Positions 707-61,699 of a stretch of 64,000 nucleotides of DNA are shown here, piece by piece (the first letter of the stretch is position 1; every line of letters starts with the position of its first letter). Source of the DNA: Beroe forskalii (Eukaryota > Ctenophora > Nuda > Beroida > Beroidae); NCBI GenBank assembly GCA_011033025.1, contig WFMF01000185.1:1-64000 (forward strand), in the 5' to 3' direction. Below the pieces are notes generated by a model. That model searched no databases. It had not been told where the DNA came from and worked only from the letters and a program-made list of their open reading frames with translations. A program made the translations under genes and the position numbers.

Positions 707-3700
707 CCAGCCATGTAAACATCTGGTTTTAGGAACAGACCTTCCGCCAACCTAAGTGTTATGTGTCAGGAAAAGCTGCAGAGTACGTTGAACACAAAAT
801 ATATGTGAGCTGCTGACACCACAAGAAAACAAGAACAGTAATTACTGTGTTTTAGTATGCAGGCATTGGAATAACTCCTTGTAATCCTACTTTTACTCTT
901 TTATACCTGTCTGGATCGATTGAGTGGGGGGTGGCAGAGATGCCTGATTCAGGGCCTCCAGGCACCAAACTCCGGCTTGGAGAAGGAGGCATCTCAACCA
1001 GGGGGGAGGAGAGACCTTCAACACTGCTCATTTGAGAGGATCGATCGAAACCTGATATGTCCAGAACATGGCGCTCCTGAGAAAAGGGATATAATAGTCT
1101 CACGCACATTTAACATAGCTCCTCTGCGAATTACATCCCTTGATATCTAGCGTCTCTCACATACACTTTATAAGGATGCTAAATGAAAAACCCATCTATT
1201 ACATGAGCTCTATTTGATAAATCCGACACCGCATCAATGTTATATCTTCTCTACATCAACATTATATAAAATAGATCTTTGCTAATTCACATGCCAAGAT
1301 ATCATGCATCTTCTTTGTATCCTCATGTAATTTATAGCCCCAAGATGAATATTATTCACAGTCATCCCCAAACCACAGCTACATATAACAAACGTGTTAC
1401 AAATATGCATAACACGTTCGACTATTATATTACTTTAGCGAAAGCCATTCATAACATATCTAAATTTATCACGGCTCCACTCTTCGAGTGTCGCGTGATA
1501 AATTAGATATAAATATTTCGTAGCAAGCTACTCAATATTTATATCCTATTACATACTCATTTCATTCGTATGTAATAGAGATATGTTAATTCCTGGTCTT
1601 TCGCTAAAGTACATATAGAGTGAATGATGGGAAGACTAATAGATAATGATACATACAGCTGTACCACATTAAAAAGATGTTTGAGTCAAATAATATACAA
1701 TCAAATGCTTTCTGAACCTTTTGTTGTATAAATGTACTTTAGCGAAAGACCAGGAATTAACATATCTCTATTACATACGAATGAAATGAGTATGTAATAG
1801 GATATAAATATTGAGTAGCTTGCTACGAAATATTTATATCTAATTTATCACGCGACACTCGAAGAGTGGAGCCGTGATAAATTTAGATATGTTATGAATG
1901 GCTTTCGCTAAAGTAATATAATAGTCGAACGTGTTATGCATATTTGTAACACGTTTGTTATATGTAGCTGTGGTTTGGGGATGACTGTGAATAATATTCA
2001 TCTTGGGGCTATAAATTACATGAGGATACAAAGAAGACGCATGATATCTTGGCATGTGAATTAGCAAAGATCTATTTTATATAATGTTGATGTAGAGAAG
2101 ATATAACATTGATGCGGTGTCGGATTTATCAAATAGAGCTCATGTAATAGATGGGTTTTTCATTTAGCATCCTTATAAAGTGTATGTGAGAGACGCTAGA
2201 TATCAAGGGATGTAATTCGCAGAGGAGCTATGTTAAATGTGCGTGAGACTATTATAGTCAATTCACAAAACAAATTCCTGGCAACTTTCCCAGCATACCT
2301 TGACAGGAATTTCTTCCTCACTGGGCTCCTCATCTTCACTCTCTGTGAGCTCCTCTTCACTGTCATCCTTGTCTGGCACTGCTCCACTCACCCTCAGCAG
2401 CTGTCTGCAAAGCTTGTACTCCTCAAACAGACTCGTCCTGATCGAAGTAAAGTGATAGTTCTAACTTGCTACTGGAGTCAAAATTCACTGAAAGGTTTTT
2501 CAATGAGAAAAAGGGCAAACCATGATAATTCATTATATGCCAGATTTCCCAAAACTTACAAAAGTAGAGCTTCATAATATCATAACTTTTGTTGAGATTG
2601 GAGTTTCTAGATGAAATTTTGGAACATCACAGGTATGTACGATACAATTTTGCGCAAAAATTTGAAGTTTCCACCTCGAAAATGGCCTAGTTATCAAGGA
2701 AAGACATCATAACATCATTTTCTTTGCTTCAGGAGCTCAGACATGCACCGAAATTTGAGGTGATGTTGCTCAATGATCAAAAAAGTGGTAGCTCGGTAAT
2801 CTACCGATGCACACCCGGGGTACAACCTGGGTACACCTGGGGTTCACCTCGGGCACATGTCGGGCACAAGACACACCTGGAGCACATCTGGGCACAACCA
2901 CCAGGGGCAAACCTCCAGTTTGCTTAAAACTTTAAAAGGCCATTGAGATTATTATATGGGTCGTTCTGTAATGCAAAAAGTGACCTATGCAAGGTCACAA
3001 CTCACATTCCAAAATGCAGAGATAAGTAAATGATGTTTGTTTGCAAATTATTTACAGATAGTGTTTATAATCCATTATTGCGGCGCGTTTTTTCATGAAA
3101 ATTTCACAATTTTGGGCATTTTTAGACTTCAGAGCATTATGGAACTAAAGTTGACATTTATTTTTGAGCTTCAGATGCAGAAATATGGCCAAAAAACAGT
3201 TTTTTTTAGCTAAACGCTTCAAATTTTTGGTTCAAAAATATATCGTCCTTACCCAAGACATCTCAAACTTTCACAACAAAAGTTATGCAGCTCTACTTTT
3301 CTAAACTTTTTTGGGACACATGGTAGTTATGGTTATGAATGAAAATCAAAAATTCATTAATTGGCAATCGCTTTGAGGCTATAAGAGATCCAAAATATCA
3401 TGCAAAGTCAATAATCTAACAAAGCAACAAGATAAAGTAATGCGAATGAGTCATAAGATGCTGTTCATAAATCATTATGATGGCTTGCTCGTGTCCTGCA
3501 TAATCCAGTCCACAACAAACCATGCATTAACTACCTAATGAAGAGTGGTAGCCGGTGTTTAAGAAGCCAGGTGAGCAGCAAAACCTGAACATGTTTCTCT
3601 GGGACAGGAGCTTGGATTGTTATTCCGATGACAGGCACCTTACAATCTCGATACACTTCCAATAGACGCTCTGTCTTTCTCTCATAGAACAAAGGACGGG

Positions 3701-6700
3701 CAAATGCCTGCAGAATGTTTACAGTTTATTTGAGTGTGAAACCATAGTGGCAAATTGTGAGAGTTTCATGGTAAGTTTGAATTACAGTATACCTATTCAC
3801 ATCTACTAATGATGCCCTCAATTAATTACTCATATTCTAAGACAAGTCATATGAAGGTAAAGCAATGATCAGTACATATAGAGCTATTGGCATATGAGCA
3901 TAGTAAATTACCTCACATATGCTTTTTGAGCATGGGCAACCTGGTAAAATACTTGCACAATAAATTCTATTATTACCCTGCAGTGTAATTACTTTTCGAA
4001 TTTTTGAGCAATATTAATCATGTAATTCCACCGTACCCAGCAGTTGAATTACTGTCAAGTGTGTAATTACTATACCTCAACTGTTGAATTACTATTCAAG
4101 TGTTGAATTACTATTCCCAACTGTTGAATTACTACTGTTGAATTACTACAAATTTTCTGAAACGGCCATTCGCACGATTCTAACCTATTTTCTATCTATG
4201 TGAGGATGTAAATAGGATAATAATAAGCTCCCATGATATCTGTTATCGCACTTTTCATATAAAAACGATTCGATGTAATTTATTCTTAACCGCATGTATA
4301 CTGTGACACAAGATAAAATAGCGATCAGGAGCACAATATGTTCGGTACGATATATGTTATATTCTTAATGGTACATTCGGTAGCATAAGATAAAGTAAAT
4401 AAGGAGCACAATAGATAAAATACGATAATATATACGATATTATAGGGCAACACAAGATTAAAGATAAATTAGATAAAAGGACTGCTATCGTATATACCTG
4501 ATTGGCGCCACCTAGACGCGCGTGATAACCTGGGTTCCAATGTTTATTCAATATTTATCTAGTGTTAGAGATATAACGCAGACTTATGGCGCCATATATA
4601 TGGTGTATTGCTCCATTTTATCAATTTCATTTGCATTATTACTGTGCGCCGTCATTTCTATCTGTCAGTTTTCGTTTCTTCTATGGTTGTGGAGTGAATT
4701 GTTTTGTTTTTGATTGAGTACCTACTCAACTTTCATGATTCATGTTTTTCATGGCGATGAAAGATCATAACAAACTTTTTGTAAAGTACATACACTACGT
4801 CATACACCAACAGTATGCATCAATGCTGAGCGCTGGTTCTATCATATTTTGGTCTTTTGAGAGTTTGAGTATTCGCTGAATTGACCCTGATGATGATGTG
4901 ATGTTGACTTTTACAAATTCATCCCTTTTACAAATTCATCCCTACCTAGCTATTGTTCATAAAACATTGGGTTCGAATACGTAATACGTTCATCCGTATG
5001 TTTCTAAGTTTCAACCCGTATCCTTTGATTGCTGCATACATGGCAGGGCAATAATACAGTAAATACACACTTGGGTGTGTAAATAACCATCGTAATTGCA
5101 CTCGCAAGCTCGTGCAATTACTCCAATAAATGCACTCGCAAGCTCGTGCATTTATTGCATGAATTCCACTCGCAAGCTCGTGGAATTAATGTGGTAATTA
5201 CACACCCAAGTGTGTATTTACCGTATATAATACAGTGCCATACAGTTGCAATATAACCTCAAGACAATTGTAAACTGGCTGAGCCCTATCTGCTTATCCG
5301 CATTATTGCATATATAATAACCATGTAATTGTAAACATTATAATTCCTTTTAAGGTGATTCTGAAAGAATTGCCACTTATCATCAACCCTACTACCCTAC
5401 ATTCTTTTCAAACTTTAGTCTTACTATAATAATATTCTGCTTTGGTTCATACTAAGATAGCCTTAGCCTGTATGGTTCAAAAGAGCATAAGATGCTGTAG
5501 AGGGGCGATATTTATGAGTCATTAAAGTCTTATGAGTACCTACTTTTTGATAAATTCTGATCTCCCTCTATTTTGTGACAAAATAAGAAGCAGCTTTTAA
5601 TTCTTTATAAAAAAAACTTTATGATCATTCTACGTTCAAGGTCAGTAGTTCCTCAATTTTAAATTTAATAATAACAAGAAGTTTTCTTAAGAATTTTGAT
5701 ATTCATATTTACTTACTGGTAATGAAAGGAATGCATTGAAATAGTCACAGAAAACTGAATCACGTTTAAGTATCTTGGAGCATGTCTTGTAATTGATAGG
5801 CAGACCTGAAAAATTCAATAAGTTAAGAGGTTTAAGTTAATAAATGTGTGAGGTGATAAATCAGTAAGAAATAATTATTTCAGGATCCACAAAAAGCTGT
5901 TGATTCATGTCAACTATATTGAATGTTATGCAATGGTTGACAACAAGTTATCTAGACAAATTGAAATGTGAGCTGATTGGCAAGTTTGGATCAATTTCGA
6001 GAATTTGTATATGCGGCTGTTCATTAAACATAGTATATACCCCATCGTTGTGGACATTTTCTATTTGAGGGGATGCAGATTTTGGACAAAACCCCACCCA
6101 TAGTTTTATGAAAGTAATATTATACCTAAAATGGTGTTCCTGAATATTTTTAGGTGCCATATGGTCACCACTGCAGAATTTCAATCATGAGACCCTCCTG
6201 CTCAAAAGTATCCAATAGCAAGGCCCTTCAAAGATTTTTGGAGATAGGAACCTAATGAGGTAAAAGGGTCACAAGAGTTTATAATCTTGTCTAATCGATC
6301 CATCATGTCCAATGGACAACCAATGGGCATCCATTTAACATGATGTACTATGGGTAAAAATGTCAAGTGATGTTCAATGGATCCAATGGATCCATTGGAT
6401 ACATTTTTTATTTCAATGGACATGTTCAATGGACATGTTCAACAAATCCAATGGACACAATCACCAAACATGGTTTGGTATATGAACATAAGACTGGTAT
6501 TTTTGTTTTCCTAATATATTATATGTTTTGAAGTTATATCATCATCATAAATAGCATGCCCAATGGATCCAATGGACGAAATGGATCCAATGGACGAAAT
6601 GGATCCAATGGACGAAATGGATCCAATGGACGAAATGGATCCAATGGACGAAATGGATCCATTTGACACAATGTCCAATGGATCCATTGGAAATAATGTA

Positions 6701-10300: not shown

Positions 10301-11950
10301 CTCAGGCACCAGGAGAGCAAGGAGCCCGACTTATAACCTCAGACATTTCACATCACGGCGCTTTATCTCTTACCATAGCCCTTACCTTGCCCAAACCCTT
10401 GACTCCATGACTTACCCTAACCATAAACCTAACCCCAACCCTAACCGTTGTCTACCTATAGTTGGCCCGTATGCACAAATTAAGGAAATATCATGAGGTA
10501 GTGTCGTAGGTGAAACAAATTTGAGGTGAAATGTCCATTCCCTAATTTAATAATTACTCAGACACCAGTAACCAGTTCATTGATCAATCCGACACAAAAT
10601 TACTGATCATTCAGAAATATAAGTTCTCTTATCGATCAAATGTTAATTTTCTAATCACTCACTCACTCAGACACCAGTGCATTGATCAATCTGACGCCAA
10701 TTCATTCATACTGATGTGATGTCTGATCAATAATACAATAGAAAGCAGTACAATGATCGATTTGACTCTTAGATTGCGATGGACTGATCGTTTTGCCGCT
10801 AATATGTTAATATACTGATGACTCAGGCAACAGCTCACTGATCTATCTGCCGCTTATTTACGGATTATTTTGACACCACTTCACTCAATCACTGATCAAT
10901 CTGATGCTAATTTACTGATCACTAGACACCCGTTCTCTGATCAATCTCACGCGAAGCTACTCACTACTGATCATTTAGACACCTGTTCACAGATCAATCT
11001 GAAATTTACTGTTACTTTGACTCCTGTTAACTAATCAAGTGACGCTTTAATCTACTATCAATGTGAAAACCAGTTCACTGATTTTGGCACGAATTTAACG
11101 AACACTGAGGCACCAATTAGCCAATTCACTAACCAATCTGATGCTAATTCAGTAATTTACTGATCACTTTGACACCAGTTGACTGATCGATCCACGCTGA
11201 TTTATAGATCACTGAGACACCAATTCACTATTATCAATCTTACTCTGATTTACGATTTAGTTGTCACTTAGACAAGACTCAGGCATTCGGCTGTTGTCAG
11301 TTCAATGAACTGAGTTGAGGCTGGAGCCTCGCGCCTATCTTCATCGATGAAGATAGGCGCGAGGCTCCAGCCTCAACTCAGTTCTTTGGACTGACAACAG
11401 CCGAATGCTTGAGTCTTGTCAGTTGTCACTTAGACATTTAGACAATTAGAAACCAGTTCTCCATGATCAATCTGATGGTAATTTACTGATCACTTCGACA
11501 GCCGATAACTGATCAATAGAATGAATAATGTTCTTTATTCTCTTAGCTCAGCGAAGTGAAACGAACGATAACTGATCAATCTGACGCTAATTTATGGATA
11601 ACTAACCAATCTGACACCGATTTACTTATCACTTACAACTCAAGAGATTGAAGTTTATTAAACGAAATAACTCATACGAGAGGATTGTAATCAGAAGCTT
11701 TCGAAAATCTTGTGATTATCGTCGTCAGCTTAGACATTTAGGTATTTAGACAATCAGACACCAGTTCTCTGATCAATCTGATGTTAATTTACTGATCACT
11801 TTGACAGTCGATTACGGATCAATCCGACGCTATTTTACTGATCATTTTGAAACCAATTCACTGATCAATCTACGCTAATTCACTCTGACACCAGTTTACT
11901 GATCAATATACCTTCATTTACTCCACTCTAAAACCAGTTCACTAATCTGC
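10300..11950. repeat. TGATCA-rich degenerate tandem array
   Basis: Irregular units such as CTGATCAATCTGACGC, TTTACTGATCAC and TTTGACACCAGTTC alternate for about 1.6 kb. The palindrome TGATCA recurs dozens of times. The array is present again at about 17340-18350 and, reversed, at 23160-24240 and 26620-26950. It has no coding potential. Confidence 0.75.
11271..11420. repeat. 150-bp near-perfect palindrome
   Basis: Two 75-bp arms meet at the centre TCATCGATGA (11341-11350), with a few mismatches near the middle of each arm. Copies are at about 17700-17840, with a damaged centre, and about 23665-23815. Such a sequence can extrude as a cruciform and is prone to deletion. Confidence 0.85.
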
Positions 11951-23160: not shown

Positions 23161-24239
23161 GGAGTAAATGAAGGTATATTGATCAGTAAACTGGTGTCAG
23201 AGTGAATTAGCGTAGATTGATCAGTGAATTGGTTTCAAAATGATCAGTAAAATAGCGTCGGATTGATCCGTAATCGACTGTCAAAGTGATCAGTAAATTA
23301 ACATCAGATTGATCAGAGAACTGGTGTCTGATTGTCTAAATACCTAAATGTCTAAGCTGACGACGATAATCACAAGATTTTCGAAAGCTTCTGATTACAA
23401 TCCTCTCGTATGAGTTATTTCGTTTAATAAACTTCAATCTCTTGAGTTGTAAGTGATAAGTAAATCGGTGTCAGATTGGTTAGTTATCCATAAATTAGCG
23501 TCAGATTGATCAGTTATCGTTCGTTTCACTTCGCTGAGCTAAGAGAATAAAGAACATTATTCATTCTATTGATCAGTTATCGGCTGTCGAAGTGATCAGT
23601 AAATTACCATCAGATTGATCATGGAGAACTGGTTTCTAATTGTCTAAATGTCTAGTGACAACTGACAAGACTCAAGCATTCGGCTGTTGTCAGTCCAAAG
23701 AACTGAGTTGAGGCTGGGAGCCTATCTTCATCGATGAAGATAGGCGCGAGGCTCCAGCCTCAACTCAGTTCATTGAACTGACAACAGCCGAATGCCTGAG
23801 TCTTGTCTAAGTGACAACTAAATCGTAAATCAGAGTAAGATTGATAATAGTGAATTGGTGTCTCAGTGATCTATAAATCAGCGTGGATCGATCAGTCAAC
23901 TGGTGTCAAAGTGATCAGTAAATTACTGAATTAGCATCAGATTGGTTAGTGAATTGGCTAATTGGTGCCTCAGTGTTCGTTAAATTCGTGCCAAAATCAG
24001 TGAACTGGTTTTCACATTGATAAGTAGATTAAAGCGTCACTTGATTAGTTAACAGGAGTCAAAGTAACAGTAAATTTCAGATTGATCTGTGAACAGGTGT
24101 CTAAATGATCAGTAGTGAGTAGCTTCGCGTGAGATTGATCAGAGAACGGGTGTCTAGTGATCAGTAAATTAGCATCAGATTGATCAGTGATTGAGTGAAG
24201 TGGTGTCAAAATAATCCGTAAATAAGCGGCAGATAGATC

Positions 24240-26612
24240 CATGCCACGAAAAAACTTAATCCTGGCCATCCTAGATACATGCAAAATCCTTTTCAAAATA
24301 TGCAGTTTTGAGATATTTCGAACTCTCAAGACAAAAATGCATAAAATTACTTGAACTCAATCTTTATTTTAGAAACGAATGTGCATTTTTAAAAATAAAA
24401 TTGTGCATTTTTTGTATTTATCGACTTTCCATATCAAGGGATTCTTGTCACTAGCTGTGAAAATGAAAGTGCATGTTTTAAGCACTGAAATGAAAATTAT
24501 GCATGTTTCAATTATGCATGTTTCAAATCTCATTTGTATTAAAAAATAGTAATTGTATTCATAGAAATTGTACGTTGAATAAAATTACGATTTTATATAT
24601 ATAGCTTCATCCCCCCCCTAAGAAAAGGGGGGGGGGGATGAGTTTTAGTCAGATAAGGTAGGTGGGGGGTTGCCCTAATTTAAACGATTCTGGGGGACTT
24701 GGACTGGAGGGGGGAGCGAAAAAATTAAGGGGGATTGGGATCTGGCAGAAGAATTTCAAAATTTGAGATGAAAATCTTGGCTTCCGTGAGAAATATTTTT
24801 TCTCCGACCTCTCTGGCTTCTGGGGGCTGCGCCCCAGACCCCCTGCTCTTTTGTACGACTGCCAAATAACTACAATACTTCAATTCCTGCCATTTTCAAG
24901 CAAAGTCAACCTTTAATGTGTTTCTATGTTTTAATGTTGTGTTGACAATATCCTGAGACTTGCTTTCATGCAATGATTCCCTTACAAGTGTCACTTCAGC
25001 CTCTATTATATTCAAGGGTTAGATTTACATTAAATTGAACTTCATTACCATTTCAGTCATCAGCAATATTATATGTTAAAACTCAAAATTGACTAAATTT
25101 CTTGTCTGTCAGCCACATATCATAGTTTACATACTTTCATCTTGTCATAAAGTGTTTAGTTTCGATTGATTCTATTGTAAACATTTCAATGGACATATCT
25201 TAGAAAGTTGTCTAAGTTTTTGGTGGGGGGTTGGTCGAATTTTTGAAATCAGGGGGCGGGTGGCCAAAAGGGGGGGGATTGAGGATTTTGAAAATTCAGG
25301 GGGGAGGTTTTGTCAAGGGGGAGTTAAAAAATTCAGGGGGGGATTGGACCCAGGATGAAGCTATGTGCATAATATTAAATTGCCCCCAGATCCCAATCTA
25401 CTGGATTTAATCTTCATCTCTGAAATTTTAACTACATTAAATTTGCTAAGGTACCTTGATCTTAAATTACGCTGAAATAAAGAAATAAGAGTTATATAAT
25501 CCTATTGAGGTGACAATTTTATTTATTAGAAAACGATCTCTGACTGGGGCTGCCGCCCCAGACCCCTACTCTCACATGTTATCAATCGACTCAACTTACA
25601 GGACAGAATTAAGAGTTGAAATCCTATTAAGGACAATTTTATTCATAGAAAACGTCTGACTTCTAGGGGCTGTCGCCCCCAGACCCTACTTCACATGTTA
25701 TCAGTCGACTCAATTTATAGGACAAAAGAGTTAAAATCCTATTGAGGCGACAATTTTATTTATGGAAAACATCTGACTGGGGCTGCCGCCCCAGACCCTG
25801 CTTCTCATGTTATCAATCGACTCAACTTACAGGACAGAATAAAGAGTTAAAAATCCTATTGAGGCGACAATTTTATTCATAGAAAACGTCTGACTTTTAG
25901 GGGCTGTCGCCCCCCAGACCCCTACTTCACATGTTATCAATCGACTCAACTTACAGGACAGAATTAAGAGTTAAAATCTATTGAGGCGACAATTTTATTC
26001 ATAGAAAACGTCTGACTTTTCTGGGGGCCTGTCGCCCCCAGACCCTGCTGCACATGTTATCAATCGACTCAACTTACAGGACAGAATTAAGAGTTAAAAT
26101 CCTATTGAGGCGACAATTTTATTCATAGAAAACGTCTGACTGCAGGGGGCTGTCGCCCCCCTACCCCTACACATGTTATCAATCGACTCAACTTACAGGA
26201 CAGAATTAGAGTTAAAATCCTATTGAGGTGACAATTTAATTCATAGAAAACGTCTGGCTTATGGGGCTGTCGCCCCCAGACCCCTAACTTCGCATGTTAT
26301 CAATCGACTCAACTTACAGGACAGAATTAAGAGTTAAAATCCTATTGAGACGGCAAATTTATTTATAGGAAACGTCTGGCTTCTGGGAGCTGCCGCCCCC
26401 AGACCCCTGCTCCACTTGTTAGAAATCAACTCAACGTGCAGGAGCTTTTAGGATGCTGCTGAGAGGAAATTTTGAAATTGATTTCGTGCACCTGTGAATT
26501 TTTGTTGTATAATTTTTGTTGTATATGAAATCAAAATTTGCCTGCGCAAAAATATGCAGCTTTGTGATTTCAAACTCAGGATACATGCAAAAAAATATTT
26601 TTTCGAGGTATG
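24240..26612. mobile_element. 2.4-kb non-autonomous DNA transposon, copy 1
   Basis: The ends read CATGCCACGAAAAAA and, reverse-complemented, CATACCTCGAAAAAA. A perfect 8-bp target duplication GATAGATC flanks it (24232-24239 and 26613-26620). The empty site can be read in the paralogous array near 10840. The interior has long G and C runs near both ends and an array of about 120-bp units; there is no transposase. An 8-bp duplication fits hAT-like elements, but the terminal bases are not diagnostic. Confidence 0.88.
25490..26430. repeat. About 120-bp tandem repeat inside the transposon
   Basis: About eight units of 112-124 bp each contain a G/C hairpin of the type GGGGCTGTCGCCCC, then ATGTTATCAATCGACTC and AATCCTATTGAGGCG. 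The opposite-strand array in the second copy is at about 38640-39590. The hairpin core is kept while its flanks vary. Confidence 0.85.
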
Positions 26613-28993: not shown

Positions 28994-29639
28994 CTGGACA
29001 GAAGCCAGAGCTAGCGAAACGTTAACAAATAACAACACTGTAAACTTGAAAGTTTAAATCAACTTAAAACGCAGTTTCCAACTCCTTATTTTGCATTCAG
29101 CAAGTTTTTGAAGTCTGGGTACAGAAACCTGTCACACAAGTTAAAATCAGGTCTAAGGACTCTGTTTGATCATAGTCCCACAGTGCACATGTAACTCTAT
29201 ATTCACATAGTCTTTGGGCTTTTTGTTTTTTAATACTTAAATACTATATTATGTTTAATAATAACATCGACATACAGCAGCAAACTTAACCAACTTTTGT
29301 AGAATCAAAAGTGTCAACTGTGACGCCGCTTACTGGAAATGAGATAAGGCCTATCTTCTTCAAAATTTTCACGTAGTTCACAAAAAAGTTCTCCCATCTT
29401 ATACGGTTCGTCGGAAATAGGGCAGTGAAATTATTTATGGAAAATACTAAGTATTATTTAACTCACAGCCCGTTCGCCGAGTTTGAAATCCAGATTACGG
29501 AGCGGCCTCGTACTTTTTTCGGATCGTTAAATAATAATGTTACTACTCACGGATATCGGTGTGGATTTCCCATATTCCACTTTCGCTTCGCCTCGAGGAA
29601 TATTCACCAATCCACAACCTCAATAGTGTGTAACATCAT

Positions 29640-29815
29640 ATTATTCACCATGTGGTGGGGTTATTCTGGTTGAATAAAAACGTGTTATTTAGAGTTTTTT
29701 GTCGTATTATTCCACCTTTTTAGTATTATTCACACTTTTTACCATGTTATTCCACTCTTACACCGTGTTATTTGCCATTTTTATGGTGTTATTCAACACT
29801 TTTCCCAAATTATTG
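29640..29815. repeat. Degenerate tandem repeat of TATTATTCAC type
   Basis: Six to seven imperfect units of about 25 bp contain variants of GTGTTATTCACC and CTTTTTACC. Farther on (29816-29940), GACAGAACGTCCTTTTCGCTG-like sequence occurs twice, about 100 bp apart. The next hairpin element follows directly. Confidence 0.6.
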
Positions 29816-29996
29816 ATACGACAGAACGTCCTTTTCTGCTGGGAGAGCTGGCACACTGCTAATTTGCCTGATCAGTAGATAATTGCTCTCCACCAAAAAA
29901 AGTGATACAACGGAACGTCCTTTCGCTGTGAACTGTACAGAATGCTAAAAATCTCAGCCTTTTAAAGGCTCAAAGCTTTGTACGTTTGTACACTTG

Positions 29997-30178
29997 GTGA
30001 ATAATGTTACACAACTCATAAGTATGAAGTAATAGCTTATTTTCAACTCGGGCTACGCCCTCGTTGAAAACAAATATTATTCAACTCAGCCTTCGGCTTC
30101 GGTGAATAAAAATTCTTCGCTCGTGGCATAAATCATGTTACTTCACACTTATTCGTTGAGTAACTATATTATACACCT
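29997..30178. mobile_element. Cloverleaf-type palindromic element, imperfect
   Basis: An imperfect outer stem (29997-30034 with 30136-30178) encloses two clear hairpins: 30040-30070 (TTTTCAAC...GTTGAAAA, loop with GGGC-TAC-GCCC) and about 30077-30109 (TTATTCA...TGAATAA, loop with AGCC-TTC-GGCT). The expected third hairpin is degraded. Loop design matches the elements at 5.1 and 43.2 kb. Confidence 0.65.
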
Positions 30179-30232
30179 TGTGACACTCGTTCCTCTCATG
30201 AATAAGTATAAACCCTGGACAGTTACGTCTTA

Positions 30233-37351: not shown

Positions 37352-37636
37352 CTCAAATTTGATTGTATAAAAGTATCATAATTCATAAAAAATACATGAT
37401 ACCCATTAAATCGTCGAATATCAGATGATTAGATACTTAAATATAAACCTAGGAATCCTATTCCTTTATCATAAAATGTTTCGAAAAATGCTAGGTATTA
37501 TGAAAATAGAAGCACACCATATAATTTCCTCAAAATTTTATAATAATAATTAAATTATTAGTATTATTGATATCAAGAGATTACAACTGCAACAAGAGGC
37601 ATATATATCACTATTGTATAAGTATAATTAGATACC

Positions 37637-37945
37637 TCCCGTGGCTCAAACTCCAGTGTGATAATTATCGATATATCACTCCTTTATAGGACTACTGAAC
37701 AGTGGCGGAATAATAGAGCAGAATATCGTCAAATAAATTGTTGATTTTATGAAGGAGCACTCGATAATCTATAAAAACGTTGAATTCAGACGAGGGTCGT
37801 CAGACCCGAGTGGTAGGGAGTACTGTTTTGTCGGGTAATAATACACTAACAAACTTGGATCGTGTGATATCGAAAATTGTCAAACTCGGCTGACGCCTCG
37901 TGTGATAATTTTCGATATAACACTCCCATTCGTTTGTTAATCGTA
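37637..37945. repeat. Dispersed palindromic repeat, copy 1
   Basis: It begins CCTCCCGTGGCTCAAACTCC and shares the words GTGATAATTATCGATATATC and TGAAGGAGCACTC with 61420-61560, and GACGAGGGTCGTCAGACCCG with about 57165-57185 and 57497. The distal part (37848-37938) has an outer stem AACAAAC/GTTTGTT around one hairpin with stem ATATCGAAAATT and a loop AACTCGGCTGACGCCTCGTG, like the cloverleaf family. Confidence 0.7.
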
Positions 37946-38454: not shown

Positions 38455-40853
38455 CATACCTCGAAAAAATATTTTTTTGCATGTATCCTGAGTTTGAAAT
38501 CACAAAGCTGCATATTTTTGCGCAGGCAAATTTTGATTTCATATACAACAAAAATTATACAACAAAAATTCACAGGTGCACGAAATCAATTTCAAAATTT
38601 CCTCTCAGCAGCATCCTAAAAGCTCCCTGCACGTTGAGTTGATTTCTAACAAGTGGAGCAGGGGTCTGGGGGCGGCAGCTCCCAGAAGCCAGACGTTTCC
38701 TATAAATAAATTTGCCGTCTCAATAGGATTTTAACTCTTAATTCTGTCCTGTAAGTTGAGTCGATTGATAACATGCGAAGCAGGGGTCTGGGGGCGACAG
38801 CCCCCATAAGCCAGACGTTTTCTATGAATTAAATTGTCACCTCAATAGGATTTTAACTCTTAATTCTGTCCTGTAAGTTGAGTCGATTGATAACATGTGA
38901 AGCAGGGGTCTGGGGGCGACAGCCCCCAGAAGCCAGACGTTTTCTATGAATAAAATTGTCGCCTCAATAGGATTTTAACTCTTAATTCTGTCCTGTAAGT
39001 TGAGTCGATTGATAACATGTGCAGCAGGGGTCTGGGGGCGACAGCCCCCAGAAGCCAGACGTTTTCTATGAATAAAATTGTCGCCTCAATAGGATTTTAA
39101 CTCTTAATTCTGTCCTGTAAGTTGAGTCGATTGATAACATGTGAAGCAGGGGTCTGGGGGCGACAGCCCCTAAAGTCAGACGTTTTCTATGAATAAAATT
39201 GTCGCCTCAATAGGATTTTAACTCTTTATTCTGTCCTGTAAGTTGAGTCGATTGATAACATGAGAAGCAGGGGTCTGGGGGCGGCAGCCCTCAGAAGCCA
39301 GACGTTTTCCATAAATAAAATTGTCGCCTCAATAGGATTTTAACTCTTTTTGTCCTATAAATTGAGTCGACTGATAACATGTGAAGCAGGGGTCTGGGGG
39401 CGACAGCCCCTAGAAGTCAGACGTTTTCTATGAATAAAATTGTCGCCTTAATAGGATTTCAACTCTTAATTCTGTCCTGTAAGTTGAGTCGATTGATAAC
39501 ATGTGAAGCAGGGGTCTGGGGGCGGCAGCCCCAGAAGCCAGACGTTTTCTAATAAATAAAATTGTCACCTCAATAGGATTATATAACTCTTATTTCTTTA
39601 TTTCAGCGTAATTTAAGATCAAGGTACCTTAGCAAATTTAATGTAGTTAAAATTTCTACAGAGATGAAGATTAAATCCAGTAGATTGGGATCTGGGGGCA
39701 ATTTAATATTATGCACATAGCTTCATCCTGGGTCCAATCCCCCCCTGAATTTTTTAACTCCCCCTTGACAAAACCTCCCCCCTGAATTTTCAAAATCCTC
39801 AATCCCCCCCCTTTTGGCCACCCGCCCCCTGATTTCAAAAATTCGACCAACCCCCCACCAAAAACTTAGACAACTTTCTAAGATATGTCCATTGAAATGT
39901 TTACAATAGAATCAATCGAAACTAAACACTTTATGACAAGATGAAAGTATGTAAACTATGATATGTGGCTGACAGACAAGAAATTTAGTCAATTTTGAGT
40001 TTTAACATATAATATTGCTGATGACTGAAATGGTAATGAAGTTCAATTTTAATGTAAATTAATCCTTGAATATAATAGAGGCTATGAAGTGACACTTGTA
40101 AGGGAATCATTGCATGAAAGCAAGTCTCAGGGATATTGTCAACACAACATTAAAACATAGAAACACATTAAAGTTAAGTTGACTTTACTTGAAAATGGCA
40201 GGGAATTGAAGTATTGTAGTTATTTGGCAGTCGTACAAAAGATATCGGGGGTCTGGGGCGCAGCCCCAGAAGCCAGAGGGTCGGAGAAAAAAATTTTCTC
40301 GCGGAAATAGGATTTTCATCTCAAATTTTGAAATTCTTCTGCCAGATCCCAATCCCCCCCCTTAATTTTTTCACCCCCTCCAGTCCAAGTCCCCCCAGAA
40401 TCGTTTAAATTAGGGCAACCCCCCACCTACCTTATCTGACCCAAAATCTTCATCCCCCCCCCCTTTTCTTAGGGGGGGGATGAAGCTATGTTATGCATAA
40501 AATCGTAATTTTATTCAACGTACAATTTCTATGAATACAATTACTATTTTTTAATACAAATGAGATTTGAAACATGCATAATTGAAACATGCATAATTTT
40601 CATTTCAGTGCTTAAAACATGCACTTTCATTTTCACAGCTAGTGACAAGAATCCCTTGATATGGAAAGTCGATAAATACAAAAAATGCACAATTTTATTT
40701 TTAAAAATGCACATTCGTTTCTAAAATAAAGATTGAGTTCAAGTAATTTTATGCATTTTTGTCTTGAGAGTTCGAAATATCTCAAAACTGCATATTTTGA
40801 AAAGGATTTTGCATGTATCTAGGATGGCCAGGATTAAGTTTTTTCGTGGCATG
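38455..40853. mobile_element. 2.4-kb non-autonomous DNA transposon, copy 2
   Basis: Reverse-oriented relative of 24240-26612 with the same ends. A perfect 8-bp target duplication CAATGCTC flanks it (38447-38454 and 40854-40861). It keeps the about 120-bp array (38640-39590) and the C/G homopolymer tracts near 39740-39860 and 40340-40490. High similarity between two independently inserted copies suggests recent activity driven by a transposase elsewhere. Confidence 0.9.
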
Positions 40854-42625: not shown

Positions 42626-43160
42626 ATGAATTTTTGTTACATAATTAAAAATCTGCTTAGCTAAGCCTACCTCATAAAAAGCTCTTGCAATTTAAACACC
42701 CCAAAACCTGAGGTAGGTATTGTATTGAGGAAGATGCCTGCACACCACTCATCTTGGTGTGACTGACTTAGTATAGATCCTACTGCTCTCTACATTGCAT
42801 TAGGGTTCATGCTGGTGTTCGAGTATGGAGTTCGAGAAAAGTCTTGCAGAAAGATTTCTTTATGATTTGAACACTGAATATCGATTTTATGATCCAAGGA
42901 TAAGATTGGAGAGGGAAGAGACTAAACTGTGAATCATCAGCATTTACCTTGCAGATGCAAAGTCCCCCTTGTTAACTGCAATGAGGTTTTCCATTAGAGT
43001 GGACTCTGCTTTGAAATCACAATTGTTATATGATCAAAGGAATTTGTGTTTGAATCATGGTGTAATGTGCTACAAAATGTAAATTATTTGTTTTATTAAT
43101 TATTTGTTTTATTTTAAAAGCGGATTTACCCATGCTGAATAAACTTACTCCTTAATATAG
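42626..43160. other. Intergenic sequence upstream of GTF2H1
   Basis: Holds the presumed GTF2H1 promoter and, at 42660-42860, the second copy of the dispersed repeat seen at 8091-8290. The rest is AT-rich with no visible gene. Confidence 0.5.
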
Positions 43161-43161
43161 G

Positions 43162-43323
43162 ATAATCAAACACCCTTAGGATACGTTTATATGAATTATC
43201 ACACGAGCGAAGCGAGTGTGATAATTGGAATTATTGCAAAAGCTGAAGGCAAGTGCAATAATTCCAATTATCACTCGAGCCGAAGGCTAGTGTGATAATT
43301 GATATAAACGTATCCTTAGGGTG
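43162..43323. mobile_element. Cloverleaf element, three contiguous hairpins
   Basis: An outer stem (CCTTAGGATACGTTTATAT at 43174-43192 with its complement at 43302-43320) closes three hairpins that abut without spacers: 43194-43226, 43227-43265 and 43266-43300. Loops share a GAAG core (GAGCGAAGCGA, GCTGAAGGC, GCCGAAGGC). Beyond the outer stem the inverted pairing continues (AATCAAACAC on the left), but its right partner GTGTTTGATT is displaced to 44311 by the inserted retroposon. Confidence 0.85.
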
Positions 43324-44300
43324 GGGTCCCTGTGAGCATATGCGCAGCATATATTCTTTATGGGTGGTCTTGTCTCTGGCACTTCTTGTGTCACGAGGCA
43401 GCTAGCGAAGTCCTGTTCCACCCTCCAGCAGCTTCGGTCTGCTAGGTGCACCCCGGGTAACGCTAAGGTTCAGGCAACACTGAGCTGACTCTCATCCAGT
43501 TCAGTGTCCATCTCACCCCACCTCTCTGTCCCCCCCCTGTTTTCACCCTCCTCATCTTACTTCACACCACGCCCCCTTTCCTTGGCTCACTTCTTCCTTC
43601 CCTTGTAACCCCCCTTCTTCCCCAGTTCCCTTGGATCCCTTTTCTTGCTTGCTACTTTCCTCCTCTTCCCCCCTTCAGGCATCTCCCAGAGACTGGTGAT
43701 CTGACACGCAGATTAACACAAGGTATACTATGAGTCACAACTCCACTTTGATCGCAAACAGATGCAAACGAACACACCCAGATCGCACCAAAGTACACCA
43801 CATCTTGTCAAATTCCTTATATAATCAAAAGTCTCAACAACCATCCCTTTCAGGAAACCTTTCAGCAACTCTTCAGGACTACCCTCTCAGGCATAGCATG
43901 AACATGCATCTCTGGCAAGTAAGGTAATTTCATTGCTGTGTGCAGGCGATCCCTGTACGGCTGTGTGTAGGCACTAGCCAATGGAGGACCTGTGCTGGCA
44001 CTTTTAAATTGAGCACATTGTTGCAGCAGTTGGAGCAATAGAGACCCCACATCCTACGTCGTTTCACGAGACAGGGCCGAATGCAGTCATCACAATCATA
44101 TCTCTGCACTAGAGCTATGCTAATGCAGAGACGTACTCACTGGAGTACTAAATATGATTACTGCTCGCATACCACCAAGGAACCATGTCGGCCAATGTTT
44201 CCGGAAGGGTATGGTCATATATGTCCTCCAATCCTGTGTGTTGGGGGCACTACGGGGGCTTTAGTAAGCCTTCCGTCAACTATCTATCTATCTATCTATC
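43324..44300 (+). mobile_element. Retroposon with (CTAT)n tail and 13-bp target duplication
   Basis: The insert ends in five to six CTAT repeats and is flanked by TATCCTTAGGGTG (43311-43323 and 44301-44313). A variable-length duplication and microsatellite tail are signatures of non-LTR retrotransposition. Its start, GGGTCCCTGTGAGCATATGC, recurs near 60362, so the family is dispersed. The interior is C-rich (43500-43690) and has no recognisable reverse transcriptase; it may be a SINE-like or internally deleted element. Confidence 0.8.
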
Positions 44301-44313
44301 TATCCTTAGGGTG

Positions 44314-45270
44314 TTTGATTAATCTATTATTTAACGTGAGAACAGGCGGATATTTACACTGGTTTTCCAATAAGAAAGCAAATTTAGAAGCCTTTAGATA
44401 TAAAAATCCTTCAAACTACAGGGCCTGAAATTGAATCTTGAAAATATCAAGCTTCGAAGTGGAAGGGAATCTTACATTAGATGGTAAAGAGTGGCTATGT
44501 ATATTTGAATTTGCCTCAGAAAGTATGAATAAAAACGCAAGTCTGGAGTATTCATAAACTTTGGTCACATCTTTTGATTCAGAAAGGTACTATAAAGTGA
44601 TTGACAATTGAAATGTACAACAACAAAATAGAAAGGACATTTCCGTGTAAGTGTGCAATGCCGTAACGGATGCATGCATCGGCAAATTGCGTTCGGTGGC
44701 ATTTGTTTAAAATGTAAAGATGTAAGAAGGGAAACATGATTCAAGCAAGCAAAATTTCACCAACGTGTACAACAAGTATACAAAACACCAAAACAAGAAA
44801 CCTTTACGCCAAAGCAAGAGAATAAATGTGTATATGCTCATGTATCGTTATTTATACAAGTAGTGAGGGTAAGTGGTCCTTGTGGCACATGCATGCGCGG
44901 CTCATATAATGACTACTGAGTATACATACTCATTAAATCAAAACAAGATAACATGATAATGTATACACTGATTTATTGTAATGGAGTGAGAGCAAGTGGT
45001 CTTCAAGTTTTACTGGCACATGCATGCGCAGCTGAATAACCAAGTGACAACCAGGGATTTGGAGGACATATTATATATGCATGACCTGTATTGAATAATT
45101 TTCAATGAATTGATATCTCACTGCTCATGGCTGGAACAATACCAAAGGTGCAGCTGTCTGAAGAGAGAAGCTTGCAGTATGCAACTATGTAGGTCTTGCA
45201 CATAAAATAGGTGATTCAACAGTATATATTTGCTATTTGAAACCAGGAATTATGTCATTTTCACTTTCTC
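44314..45270. other. Intergenic sequence with a short direct duplication
   Basis: AT-rich. A segment with GTGAGGGTAAGTGGTC and GGCACATGCATGCGCGGCT at about 44863-44905 is repeated in diverged form at about 44985-45035. No gene was seen. Confidence 0.4.
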
Positions 45271-50864: not shown

Positions 50865-53800
50865 CTCATGCAACTCCTCCTTATTTGCCGCATCGTGTTG
50901 GGACTCCAGCTGAGACTCCTGCAGTTTTGAGAGAACATCTTGGGTCTTGGTCAGCTCCTCCTGTAAAGACGTGCGTCAGTAACAGGTTATTACTTTTTAT
51001 TACTCATAACAACATGCAACAAGTTATTGCTCAATCAGGTCTACATTTTATTAGTTCATTGCTAAATCAGGCATACACTTTATACAGATTATTGCTCAAT
51101 ACGGCATACAGGCATAAAGTGTATGCTTTTGGACCTTGAACAATAACTTGTGGACCTGATTGAGCAATAACCTGTAGACCTGATCTAGCAATAACCTGTT
51201 GACCGTATTGAGCAATAACCTGTAGACCGTATTGAGCACAACCTGTAGACCGTATTGAGCAATAATTGAACAATAACCTGATTGAGCAATAACCTGATTG
51301 AGCACAACCTGTAGACCTGATTGAGCAATAACCTGATTTGAGCACAACCCTGGACCGTATTGAGCAATAACCTGATTGAGCACCGATTGAGCAACCTGAT
51401 TGAGCAACAACCTGATTGAGCAATATTGACCTAACCTGATTGAGCAATAACCTGATTGAGCAATAACTCAATAACTTGCATACCTTATTGAGCAATAACC
51501 TGATTGAGCAATAACCTGATTGAGCAATAACCTGATTGAGCAATAACCTGTAGACCTGATCTAGCAATAACCTGTAGACCGTATTGAGCAATAACCTGTA
51601 GACCGTATTGAGGTTCAATAACCTGATTGGAGCAATAACTCAATAACTTGTGGACCTTATTGAGCAATGACCTGATTGAGCAATAACCTGATTGAGCAAG
51701 TTGAGCAACAACTCAATAACCTGCATACCTTATTGAGCACAACCTGGGGTTTTTTATTGAGCGATAACCTGATTGAGCAATAACTCAATAACCTGCATAC
51801 CTTAGTGAGCAATAACCTGTGGACCTGATTGAGCAATAACCTGATTGAGCAATAACTCAATAACCTGCATACCTTATTGAGCAATAACCTGATTGAGCAA
51901 TAACCTGTAGACCGTATTGAGCAATAACCTGTAGACCGTATTGAGCAATAACCTGATTGAACAATAACTACCGAGCAATAACCTGATTGAGCAATAACCT
52001 GTAGACCTGATTGAGCAATAACCTGTAGACCGTATTGAGCAATAACCTGATTGAGCAATAACCTGTAGACCGTGAGCAACAACCTGATTGAGCAATAACC
52101 CCCGAGCAATTGAGCAACAACCTGATTGAACAATAACCTGTAGAGACTGATTGAGACAATTACCTCTGATCACGTTGGCAATAACCTACAGGTATTGCTA
52201 AATCAGGTCTACAGGTTATTGATAAATCAGGGGGGACTGTAGCCCAAAAACCAAAAAAAAGCCCAAGATCCTAAAATTAGGGTAAGGCAAGTTGGTTTTT
52301 TTGTTGTTTTAAATTTTTGATTTTTTGGGGTTTTTTGTTGTTTTTTGGGTTGGATTTTTAAAACTTTTTGGACATATCACACCAATGTGTTATTTGAGTT
52401 ACTTACATGTTCTTATTGATACTCAATGGTTTCCAATCATTACAGATGGCTTAAATCACTATTTTAAGGACTTTATTGGCATTTTAAGAGCCCTAGGCGC
52501 TTTTTGGATAAGGTACAACAGAAAATCATAGATATCCCTATATTACATCCCCCCACAGATATCCATCAACACATCCCCCTCATTATATCCCCATTACACA
52601 ATTATACCTCCAGACATACATCCCCGACATTGCAATATTACATCCCCCGACATTATATCCCCGACACCTGACCCCGTAATTAGTAAATGGCTTGAACACG
52701 TCTTCCCTGATGACACGGAACATCTTGGGACGTTCTGCTGCGTCTGGAGTGTCCTGATTCCACGGGTGGTGGTAGGATAGCAAGGATTTGAAGGAGTGAT
52801 GAGAGGACTACAGAGCGTTGGTGGTGCGGGCAGATCCAGCCGAAGCTCTATTACGGACGTTCCACATGTGGAGAGTGAAGATCGGGGGAGTCATCGCGCT
52901 CCAGCAGGAAGTCCGAGCTCCAGTGAGCTCATCTGCCAGGAAGATGATGGAGAGGGAAGGAAGCCGCAACATCCGCAACAGGAAGGCAAGAGCCGCCAGC
53001 TTTTCACTCGGTGCACTTAACAATAGATGTCCGGTACTCGTTACTGATAGGGTTCATGGTGCTTGACACTACGTTATCAGCTCAGTCGATAGTGCGACAC
53101 CTGAACCCCCATTCAACTGTCGCACTTGAACACCTTGGTTAAGCCGGGGATCAGCTCGTTTGATTTATATTTATTCATCAGGCATGTAATGGTTTGACCC
53201 CTGCTTTCCTCTACTGATTTACAGTACACTGTAGTAGGGGGTGTTATGTCGGGGGATGTAATGTCGGGGATATAATGTCGGGGCTATAATGTCGGGGATG
53301 TAATGTCGGGGATATAATGTCGGGGATGTAATGTCGGGGGGTAATGTCGGGGTATAATGTCGGGGATGTAATGTCGGGGTATAATGTCAGGGGGTGTTAT
53401 GTCATAATGGGGGGGTGTTATGTCGGGGATGTAATGTCGGGGATATAATGTCGGGGGATGTAATGTCGGGGGATGTAATGTCGGGGATGTAATGTCGGGG
53501 ATATAATGTCGGGGGATGTAATGTCGGGGGTATAATGTCGGGGGATGTAATGTCGGGGATGTAATGTCGGGGATGTAATGTCGGGGGTATAATGTCGGGG
53601 ATGTAATGTCGGGGGTGTAATGTCGGGGGTATAATGTCGGGGATGTAATGTCGGGGGATGTAATGTCGGGGATGTAATGTCGGGGGATGTAATGTCGGGG
53701 GTAAGGATGTAATGTCGGGGATGTAATGTCGGGGGTATAATGTCGGGGATGTAATGTCGGGGGTATAATGTCGGGGCTATAATGTCGGGGATGTAATGTC

Positions 53801-56919: not shown

Positions 56920-57109
56920 CTGAAATTATGGTCAATATAAGATTATAGATAGTTCATGGCTTTGCAGGGCAATAATCATTACCCCTTCCAAGCTTGTTTT
57001 AGAGTTTTAGACACCATGTAAGTTTGATTATACCCCTTCCAAGCTTGTCTTAGCGACCGTGTAAGTTTGGTTATATGGTCTTCATTGAATGACAGTGCAA
57101 AAAAGGTTA

Positions 57110-57700
57110 AAATGATATTTGATTTTATAAAGGAGCACTCAAAATCTACTTAAGCGTTGAATCCGGACGAGGGTCGTCAGACCCGAGTGGGAAGAAATGC
57201 TGTTGTTTGGACGGAGAATAGTAGGCCCAAACTATTTCCGGTCGGGGTATAATCCGGTTCCATGATCTCAGCTGTGACCGTATACCTTCGATAATGAACT
57301 CGGCACGCCTCGTGCATTATCTAACTTACACAGTCTCGGCTGTCGCCCCGACCATGTAAGTTGCGGTATACGGTCACCACTTCGACATGTAACCGCTTAT
57401 TATACGGCTCCCACTGAATTACAGTGCAAAAAAGCTTTAAATGAAACTTGATTTCATAAAGGAGCACTCAAAAATCAACTTTTAAGCGTTGAATCCGGAC
57501 GAGGGTCGTCGGTTACAGCTGTTTCCGGTTGGAGTATAATCCGGTTCCATGATCTCAGCTGTGACCGTATACCTTCGATAATGAACTCCACATGCCTTGT
57601 CCATTATCCAACTTACAAAGTCTTGGCTGTCGTCTCGACCATGTGAGTTGCGGTATACGGTCACCACTTCGACATATAACAGCTTATTATCTTACTGTTT
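57110..57700. repeat. Tandem pair of hairpin-cluster elements
   Basis: Two copies (about 57110-57410 and 57420-57700) each contain an outer stem GACCGTATACC/GGTATACGGTC around two hairpins. In copy 1 these are 57290-57321 (loop ACTCGGCACGCCTCG) and 57323-57362 (AACTTAC/GTAAGTT). A further outer stem (57247-57259 with 57391-57405) surrounds them. The second copy has changed loops but kept stems. Leading sequence AAGGAGCACTCAAAA is shared with 37745 and 61540. Confidence 0.75.
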
Positions 57701-60360: not shown

Positions 60361-61415
60361 GGGGTCCCTGTGAGCATATGCGCAGCACTTAATCTCAGTT
60401 AACCTCCCTGACTGCGGCTTTGTTAACAGGGAAGGGGCTGAGACGGGTCCGCAGTACACAATCTACTGTCGGAATTACTGGTATGACAACAAGCCGGCCT
60501 AGGTGAAGCATTTCTAGGATTGACTCGGTCAGAGCGGCTTTGAATTCATAAACTACAGCACAGCATTTAAAAGAAGTTGCGTAATAGAAAGCATTCGCAT
60601 AGAACTGATCATAATCTGCACGTGCACAAATATCTGTTTCCATAGCAACGGTACCATTATGCGCATCTTAGCCTTCGTTTCTCTTGATATTTTCTTGGCA
60701 AGCTCAAATTTAAACTGTGCGCCCGCACAAACAGACATTATTCACGTGCTCTTACGAAATTATATATTAGATACCTACCCAATCAAGCGTGCCGATGATC
60801 GGAATGTTCATTCCACTATAATACCAGAATACAATTGACGTTTGACACCACTCGAAAATAAGACATCTAGACATCACATAGATGACTGGGAACACCCACA
60901 CAGTACTACAATGTAGGTACTGTACAAATGGCTGAAGTGAAAAAATGGTGAACAGTGGCCGGATGCCACGGGGTTTGCTAGTACAGATCAATTTATAAAG
61001 CGGTCATGTTATTCCAAGCAAAATATAGGGTCCTGGCTAACCCTCTGATGTTAAATAAATTTTACATTGAACAAGTAAAAGTTGAAGAGGTGTGCATTAT
61101 ACCTTTTTGTAAGTGCTTGGCATAGTATCAGGAAAGGAGGAGGACTGAGACTCTAAGGCTGCAGATGAATAAACTGAACTAATCTAACACTTTAGAAAAC
61201 AATTATTAATTATTAATCAAGAAAAAAATTAAAGGTTGACAACGATGTGGGCAAGTAATTTTTATGAAGTGAATGTGCATGTTGCCGTGATGAGACGTGA
61301 AAAAAACTTAATTATGAAGAAGTGACTTGGATAATTAATTATCATCAAAACAGAGCATAGAATTCAGATAACTTGTAAAAACAATAGAACAGTTGCAAGG
61401 GTGAAAAGTATCATT
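60361..61415. other. Intergenic sequence with a retroposon-like start
   Basis: The first 27 bp match the start of the retroposon at 43324, but the interior differs. GGGGTTTGCTAGTAC at about 60969-60983 could be another Helitron-like end. A 59-codon frame at 60659-60838 with a hydrophobic N-terminus is noted but not called. Confidence 0.4.
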
Positions 61416-61419
61416 AATA

Positions 61420-61560
61420 TCCTCCCGTGGCTCAAACTCCAGTGTGATAATTATCGATATATCACTATTCATAGAATTACTGTAAAGTGGCGGAATAATG
61501 CAGCAGATTATCGTCAAATAAATTGTTGATTTTATGAAAGTATGAAGGAGCACTTGAAAA
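61420..61560. repeat. Dispersed palindromic repeat, copy 2
   Basis: Closely matches 37637-37765, including CCTCCCGTGGCTCAAACTCC, GTGATAATTATCGATATATC and CAAATAAATTGTTGATTTTA. It lacks the distal hairpin of the first copy. Confidence 0.75.
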
Positions 61561-61699
61561 TCTATAACAAGAACTGCGCCTGCCGGTACATTTATTGTGC
61601 TTGTTGTTCCCGTATGCAGGCACTTAATTTGTTGTTCCTAAGGGCTGGTAATAAACACGCTTTCATTTGATCATTGACCATTGTCCGTCTTGCTTACTG

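Follow-up and report, generated by a model that had tools for sequence, protein, structure and literature searches.

Canonical Helitrons (Helitron1) begin with TC, end with CTRR and insert between A and T. Palindromic miniature inverted-repeat transposable elements (MITEs) and fold-back elements have long self-complementary ends and TA flanks, the ends of a MITE being inverted repeats of each other. To our knowledge, the way in which Helitron2-type transposons recognise their ends is not settled. Helitron2 is defined, in the portions of the cited articles that are drawn on throughout this text, by short asymmetric inverted repeats, of which the 5′ one itself folds into a hairpin and the 3′ one immediately precedes the hairpin of the 3′ end (PMC3627910). 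The Fusarium Helitron2 element FoHeli1 begins with TCAGCC-GAA-GGCTGAC, and FoHeli insertion is placed between TNAT and A by the text and T by a figure legend (PMC5148889). HINE/DINE-1 elements have subterminal inverted repeats and a small 3′ palindrome (PMC4067079, PMC7492417). Here, we compare with these groups the cloverleaf-shaped DNA structures, three adjacent hairpins closed by an outer stem, that a first-pass annotation had reported in a 64,000-nt stretch of the ctenophore Beroe forskalii genome (contig WFMF01000185.1, positions 1 to 64,000; hereafter the window).

The cloverleaves are probably the 3′-terminal foldbacks of several non-autonomous transposon families, built like Helitron2/Helentron (HINE) and inserted at TA. 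This assignment is structural and rests on layout, target and hairpin tip, not on an enzyme. At least five families are Helitron2-like, lack a long reading frame in the copies seen and end in an extensive DNA foldback whose tip reads GA/GA on one of the two strands; they most likely represent a new structural variant of the HINE type of rolling-circle element. No Helitron with a cloverleaf or multi-hairpin end is evident from the titles and abstract openings of the open-licence papers that were listed.

Family A and its 3′ cloverleaf

The window copy of family A comprises the following features.

3968..5227, plus strand: family A element, 1260 bp, without a long reading frame, delimited by 5′ end matches and an alignment of full copies
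3968..3981, plus strand: 5′ asymmetric inverted repeat, TATTATTACCCTGC, with its inverted copy at 5043-5056 (one change in the window copy, in an otherwise exact 14-nt repeat)
5043..5056, plus strand: 3′ asymmetric inverted repeat, GCAGGGCAATAATA in the window, adjoining the cloverleaf upstream
5057..5223, plus strand: terminal cloverleaf, an outer stem and three hairpins, from the DNA fold and genome copies
5092..5187, minus strand: three hairpin tips, GA-GCTTGC-GA on the antisense strand (hairpins 5092-5121, 5124-5157 and 5162-5187)
5224..5227, plus strand: TATA at the 3′ junction, with unique flank beyond

The genome (216 Mb in 1134 contigs) was searched with the cloverleaves of families A, C and D and with family E; the best 40 candidates of each search were scored, so the high identities given here are those of selected copies. 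For the 5057-5223 cloverleaf, 322 first-look candidates were obtained. All 40 that were scored are full-length, and 39 of them (window copy excluded) are at 99%; seven of these, compared base by base, all depart from the window at the same single position. A 31-nt core pattern of family A has 173 exact matches in the genome and the first 26 nt of its 5′ end have 161, with none for either control.

Flanking sequences place the cloverleaf within a longer unit. Among 38 sampled copies, the left side is common to most and the right side varies. A recognisable 3′ inverted repeat, which reads GCAGGGTAATAATA in most copies, stands directly before the cloverleaf in 36 of these; the remaining two are truncated, with unrelated left sides. 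When 100 listed cloverleaves were paired with 84 listed 5′ ends (up to C414), an exact 5′ end was located upstream of 70 cloverleaves in the same orientation, at a distance of 1.2-1.55 kb for 53 of them, and by coordinates four are arranged head-to-tail, with the 5′ end of the next element within ~80 nt. A cloverleaf or its remnant lies within 2.6 kb in 18 of 20 stretches picked by the exact 26-nt 5′ end. The elements are mostly 1.2-1.5 kb long and non-coding. Across 12 full copies (window included), mean identity is 97.7% over the first 150 alignment columns and 96.2% over columns 150-300; it is 80-92% over columns 300-1710 and 97-99.7% in the cloverleaf.

Because the left side is shared, the right side is unique, a 5′ end lies upstream and both ends are conserved, the cloverleaf belongs to the A element as one of its two conserved ends, and the foldback travels as that end while the middle of the element diverges. 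The first-pass annotation was thus correct in treating the structures as transposable. Its class of free-standing cloverleaf elements dissolves, since 36 of 38 A cloverleaves follow the element's own repeat and the other two are truncated; the same counts argue against an A cloverleaf mobile by itself between TA flanks. Two further candidates were discarded. Longer or diverged copies (L059, L063, L069, L072 and L077) were considered as autonomous elements and dropped, with no reading frame above 138 amino acids in the stretches examined. Canonical Helitron identity was rejected because family A has TATTATTACC at its 5′ end and ACCGTA at its 3′ end.

Families B to F

The claim that several loci follow one plan is borne out by the remaining foldbacks. 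Those of families A, C, D and E each form an end of a longer repeated element, and the window contains the following further members.

1088..1624, plus strand: family C element with 5′ TATAATAGTC, 3′ inverted copy GACTATTATA and cloverleaf 1432-1610
1723..2256, minus strand: second family C element, the inverted mirror, with 528 nt of arms matching the first
29452..30185, plus strand: family E element with a decayed three-hairpin 3′ end at 29997-30178, established with genome relatives
37635..37945, plus strand: family B element with terminal hairpin 37848-37938 and 3′ inverted repeat GGGTAATAATA (~330 bp in L087)
43153..43323, minus strand: family D terminal cloverleaf, the element lying on the minus strand
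44301..45029, minus strand: part of the family D body, parted from the cloverleaf by an insertion of ~980 bp
57087..57405, plus strand: family F, first tandem copy, with a two-hairpin structure and a body related to that of B; outer ends not established
57416..57690, plus strand: family F, second tandem copy, more decayed; outer ends not established

The inverted copy of the 5′ repeat is found upstream of the 3′ hairpin and is exact over 14 nt in A, 11 in B, 10 in C and 11 in D; family E matches at only 9 of 11 nt. Family B starts with TATTATTACCCTC, carries GGGTAATAATA and ends in a single hairpin. Family C starts with TATAATAGTC and has GACTATTATA just ahead of its cloverleaf. Family D starts with ATTATATAACGATCGTTATATAAT, a perfect 10-bp 5′ hairpin formed from the 5′ repeat (the start was read in two copies), and CGTTATATAATA lies just before its cloverleaf. 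A 3′-terminal hairpin is present in A to E and is far larger than in known Helitron2/HINE. The 29997-30178 structure of family E, formerly taken for a one- or two-hairpin version, is a decayed three-hairpin element; the three-hairpin end, including the third hairpin, is present in two relatives (L089 and L090). Among the best 40 of 176 candidates, 23 family C copies (window included) are identical over 184 bp, and the best 40 of 189 family D candidates show 96% identity to the window cloverleaf.

The two C elements at 1088-2256 are arranged 3′ end to 3′ end, 111 bp apart. Their arms match perfectly over 528 nt in one comparison and at 99.6% in another, and the mirror structure reported at 1737-1916 is indeed part of the second arm of this 528-nt inverted duplication. 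Given that the two elements are 99.6-100% identical and share variants absent from L079, L080 and L082, they resemble the product of a local inverted duplication. In L080 and L081, too, inverted C copies occur in clusters.

The insertion of ~980 bp between the D body and its cloverleaf (43311-44313) is flanked by a 13-nt duplication, TATCCTTAGGGTG, and ends in CTAT repeats, which leave the first letters of the duplication ambiguous. Duplication and CTAT tail might be those that a retroposon leaves. A further partial relative of family B, at 82% over 159 nt, is located at 61413-61570.

The closest resemblance in layout is to Helitron2, with its asymmetric inverted repeats, the 3′ one adjoining a terminal hairpin, and with a 5′-repeat hairpin that is clear in D; the Beroe elements insert at TA, whereas Helitron2 inserts after TTTT (PMC3627910). 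In the published Helitron2/Helentron layout overall, the distance from repeat to end is ~20-60 bp; here it is enlarged to ~100-200 bp. FoHeli elements likewise have asymmetric inverted repeats, GAA-loop hairpins and, in a subgroup, joined ends, but their hairpins are single and short, and a multi-hairpin 3′ end is not described in the portion of the article drawn on (PMC5148889). HINE/DINE-1 and the oyster Cg_HINE share the non-coding body, subterminal repeats, 3′ palindrome and, possibly, the absence of target modification; they differ in the 5-10 bp 3′ palindrome of mite HINEs, TT or T-rich targets and, often, internal tandem-repeat arrays (PMC4067079, PMC7492417).

Folding, stem change and hairpin tips

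Each reported site was folded as single-stranded DNA and compared with 200 shuffles. None of the 200 shuffles equals the native fold at any of the six sites, and the foldbacks noted in the first pass are real, with z scores from −5.5 to −15. Three adjacent hairpins with an outer stem are obtained at 5045-5230 (−54.7 kcal/mol, z = −13.0) and at 1425-1625 (z = −12.0), in agreement with the cloverleaf plan. That plan is not found in clean form in the window copy at 43155-43335 (minus strand, z = −14.9), for which the best fold is nested, the first and third hairpins having decayed. The remaining sites score z = −7.4 (37835-37945), −8.8 (29985-30185) and −5.5 (57235-57415). The hairpins, originally described as 30-45 bp, are 30-45 nt long, with stems of 10-12 bp plus a tip.

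For covariation, family A was aligned in 20 rows, the window plus 19 non-identical sequences drawn from 58 loci, all of them with recognisable ends. Over these 20 distinct ends, 96.7% of cells pair, compared with 96.6% after shuffling. One double change occurs in 1198 cells, a count matched in 85 of 500 shuffles; when the structure is slid, 0 to 3 double changes are obtained. Copies of A decay one base at a time. Covariation among copies, whose absence the first-pass annotation had named as a refutation of its family claim, is lacking within family A, where it therefore gives no proof of structural selection.

Comparison between hairpins gives a different picture of the same stems. Thirteen of the 15 hairpins of families A to F passed a strict rule (TC/TC, sense strand only; C1 and F2 failed) and were compared as modules, those of D and E being taken from L086 and L090, as the window copies are decayed. 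Pairing is retained in 92% of stem cells, versus 56% after shuffling, which upholds the statement that stems vary from hairpin to hairpin and from family to family without loss of pairing. The modules show 13 extra pair types (shuffled mean 5.5, maximum 12), and each of the 8 positions has double changes (shuffled mean 4.6, maximum 8). Much of the contrast between paired and shuffled cells is expected, because each hairpin is a palindrome. Only when modules and families are compared do compensatory differences emerge, and the data show no stepwise compensation.

This pattern could arise if the foldbacks are kept by copying, through template switching or by extension of a stable mini-hairpin that primes itself, rather than by structural selection. 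Compensatory change is missing among A copies and yet whole stems differ between modules, and new stems, whatever their sequence, would result from self-priming at a stable tip. Palindrome correction should, however, erase the GA/GA mismatches, which are kept across families on the same strand. We consider copying improbable, though the best-placed of the alternatives; it is compatible with a Helitron2-like origin of the elements.

The hairpins share their tips. Above each stem is a 2x2 internal loop, which reads TC/TC in the sense orientation of the element and GA/GA in the antisense; beyond it lies a short inner stem of variable sequence. The loops had been credited with a common style; they are indeed shared, but the style reduces to this one motif. 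The inner tips read GCTTGC in A; GGC-GTCA-GCC in B; GTAGC-TT-GCTAC and AT-GAA-AT in C; GCC-GAA-GGC and GC-GAA-GC in D; GGGC-GTA-GCCC, AGCC-GAA-GGCT and GC-GAA-GC in E; and GGCGTGCC in F. The A tips and C2 have TT loops, not GNA. By the strict rule, 13 of 15 tips are GA/GA on the antisense strand; by eye, C1 is GA/GA with an offset bulge and F2 is GG/GA. In A, C and D the folded end with its tip motif hardly varies. Among DNA structures, C(GNA)G loops and tandem G.A pairs stand out for their stability.

When both strands of the window were scanned for 2x2 loops of any type, 12 GA/GA rows were returned; they represent nine distinct hairpins, each of which lies antisense to its element. The 12 TC/TC rows are the same hairpins on the other strand, and other 2x2 types have at most two rows each. 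Seven of the nine hairpins are independent and two belong to the duplicated C copy. The polarity of E was predicted from its tips and then found in the genome search, the body lying to the left and unique flank to the right. In the genome, 1166 matches to one tip pattern were counted and none to its reversed control. The exact D3 hairpin was not found in the prokaryotic contigs searched, and three viral-contig matches to the tip pattern contain no such hairpin by the tip rule. The antisense fold has a slightly better predicted energy in A, C, D, E and F. Since it is on the antisense strand that the tips form well, an enzyme likely reads this strand; the presence of three tips instead of one probably reflects duplication of a hairpin module.

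We note a separate 75-nt near-perfect palindrome at 11271-11420, with touching arms and a tip without the GA/GA motif, which resembles inverted repeats at 23664-23807.

Insertion target, search for an autonomous partner and alternatives

Insertions of family A are directional. The analysis used 28 unique 5′ flanks and 35 unique 3′ flanks, after 2 of 30 and 1 of 36 were dropped as self-junctions. The 5′ flanks have T at −7 (28/28), A or T at −6 (28/28) and A at −5 (22/28), and the 3′ flanks have A or T at +2 (35/35), A at +3 (33/35) and T at +4 (28/35). As background, T occurs at −7 in 31% of the 4840 TA sites of the window. The target is one-sided, TWANNNN-TA-TWAT, and its right half resembles A's own 5′ start.

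A joined-flank search provided two comparisons of filled and empty sites, and both empty sites contain one TA. One of them is a 21-bp satellite (L061); the other is a family B copy (L066 and L017, which are one locus, compared with window 37950-37691 and L025). Filled sites have TA at each end and empty ones a single TA, for which insertion between T and A without duplication is indistinguishable from TA duplication. Family A has also inserted at least twice (L066/L017 and L038) at the TA between B's 3′ repeat and B's terminal hairpin, the equivalent of window 37838-37850.

These junctions are what cut-and-paste MITEs (DDE, Tc1/mariner-like) would produce by TA duplication, if one end had acquired a palindromic insert: intact A copies have TA at both ends, the two empty sites have one, and palindromic MITEs and fold-back elements share the self-complementary ends and TA flanks. 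The ends themselves argue otherwise. The true A ends, TTATTACCC and TACGGTAAATAC, differ and are not inverted repeats of each other, the inverted copy lying ~170 bp internal, and families B, C, D and E are asymmetric in a comparable way. The target preference, too, lies to one side and lacks symmetry about the TA, and some elements are joined head-to-tail. The extreme type of MITE suggested by the first-pass annotation is therefore abandoned, and a cut-and-paste origin is unlikely.

An autonomous partner was sought among Helitron Rep domains, which have 20 matches in the genome, two of them overlapping at one locus. Within 1.5 kb of these matches, similarity to A is of chance length only (≤21 nt, best E = 0.002). 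Families C, D and E show no similarity to the Rep loci at E = 0.01, and similarity to B is limited to a separate insertion in L087. No matching end is present in the 3′ stretches read for three Rep loci (L087, L091 and L095), and the tip scan did not find the GA/GA tip at Rep loci. A link of B to the Rep-containing locus at C847 (L087) was rejected, the B hairpin ~2.4 kb past the helicase frame being a complete, separate insertion of ~330 bp. L095, beside a second copy of the C847 locus, was likewise set aside, as only the coding part is shared, and L091 yielded no end that could be used. A hairpin at L087 2214-2232, ATGAGCC-CTAAC-GGCTCAT, spans the stop of the helicase reading frame and may be near that Rep element's own 3′ end.

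Another single-strand lineage, in which an HUH enzyme other than RepHel (Replitron-like or IS200/IS605-like) reads a structured end on one strand, would account for the one-strand tip motif, the directional target and the failure to find a RepHel link. We rate it slightly below the cut-and-paste origin. The layout is close to Helitron2, and the Y1 transposase domain Y1_Tnp (PF01797) has no match in the genome while 5 of 14 control genomes are positive, which speaks against IS200/IS605; Replitron enzymes were not searched for. Viral_Rep (PF02407) also has no match, but has none in the controls either and carries little weight. An origin from CRESS viruses was rejected because the starts of C, D and E do not fit the nonanucleotide NANTATTAC, which we take to be the CRESS-virus origin, although those of A and B do. 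Finally, independent side-by-side hairpin insertions or structural RNA genes, which have nothing beyond the palindromes themselves to recommend them, can be dismissed almost entirely, given that whole cloverleaves recur nearly unchanged among the best 40 each of A, C and D and that the window has no Rfam match at gathering score.

Several observations weigh against the Helitron2-like assignment. In models of Helitron transposition it is the sense strand that moves, but the well-formed tips here are antisense, and the antisense fold is not better in B. A strong 5′ hairpin is confined to D; that of A is weak, and the first 30 nt of B, C and E contain none; a third D copy (L086) starts differently at its 5′ end. 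TA on both sides of filled ends can be read as a 2-bp cut-and-paste duplication. No RepHel copy with the family ends was found, most RepHel 3′ ends not having been read. The 3′ repeat lies ~100-200 bp from the end, before a compound foldback, compared with ~20-30 bp in Helitron2 (PMC3627910). A sequence likeness in favour of the assignment, 13 nt (AGCCGAAGGCTGA) of the FoHeli1 5′ hairpin (PMC5148889) that are identical to the antisense tip of hairpin E2, is one comparison without a chance estimate, and much of it follows from self-complementarity. Since the inverted copy of this FoHeli1 hairpin stands near the 3′ end, GAA should be on the antisense strand there too, judging from the text of the article (PMC5148889).

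With the Helitron2-like assignment, the elements would be mobilised by an HUH (Rep/helicase) enzyme from autonomous relatives, acting on the single-stranded end. The enzyme would nick next to TA, with TWANNNN as 5′ flank, and the folded end with its GA/GA-plus-GNA tips could serve as binding and stop/start signal. Selection would then keep the folded shape while the stem letters drift. A bolder and tentative proposal, which we regard as less likely than not, is that the families represent a single-strand transposon lineage whose 3′ DNA cloverleaf is read on one strand, the stem, tandem G.A mismatch and GNA-looped mini-hairpin forming a recognition code kept across families despite changes in the letters of the stems. 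If the code is shared with the Fusarium Helitron2, as the 13-nt match hints, the signal would be read by Helitron2-type Rep enzymes in general.

Helitron2-type hairpins are described as short palindromes in the portions drawn on of PMC3627910, PMC5148889, PMC4067079 and PMC7492417; at least five families here have a folded end with a strand-specific tip motif. The structure offers a concrete, testable DNA form for the enzyme recognition signal and a way to find such elements with little dependence on sequence, and TWANNNN-TA-TWAT sums up the directional target of family A as a rule. Specialists would find novelty in the tip being restricted to one strand and in the directionality of the target.

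Beyond these families, the window encodes TFIIH p62, a DEAD-box helicase, a ribosomal S9-domain protein and a reverse transcriptase, a set indicative of a eukaryote. A search with TFIIH p62 gave 12 hits, of which eight are at 50-82% identity and one at 31%; the other three, from a sea urchin and two fishes, are at 32-33% and suggest an animal. A 2.8-kb array of a 15/29-bp G-rich unit, GGGGATGTAATGTCG, occupies 53237-56061, with a GC skew of up to 0.72. Two arrays of one 122-bp unit, at 25481-26443 and 38626-39597, contain ~8 copies each and are in opposite orientation by consensus.

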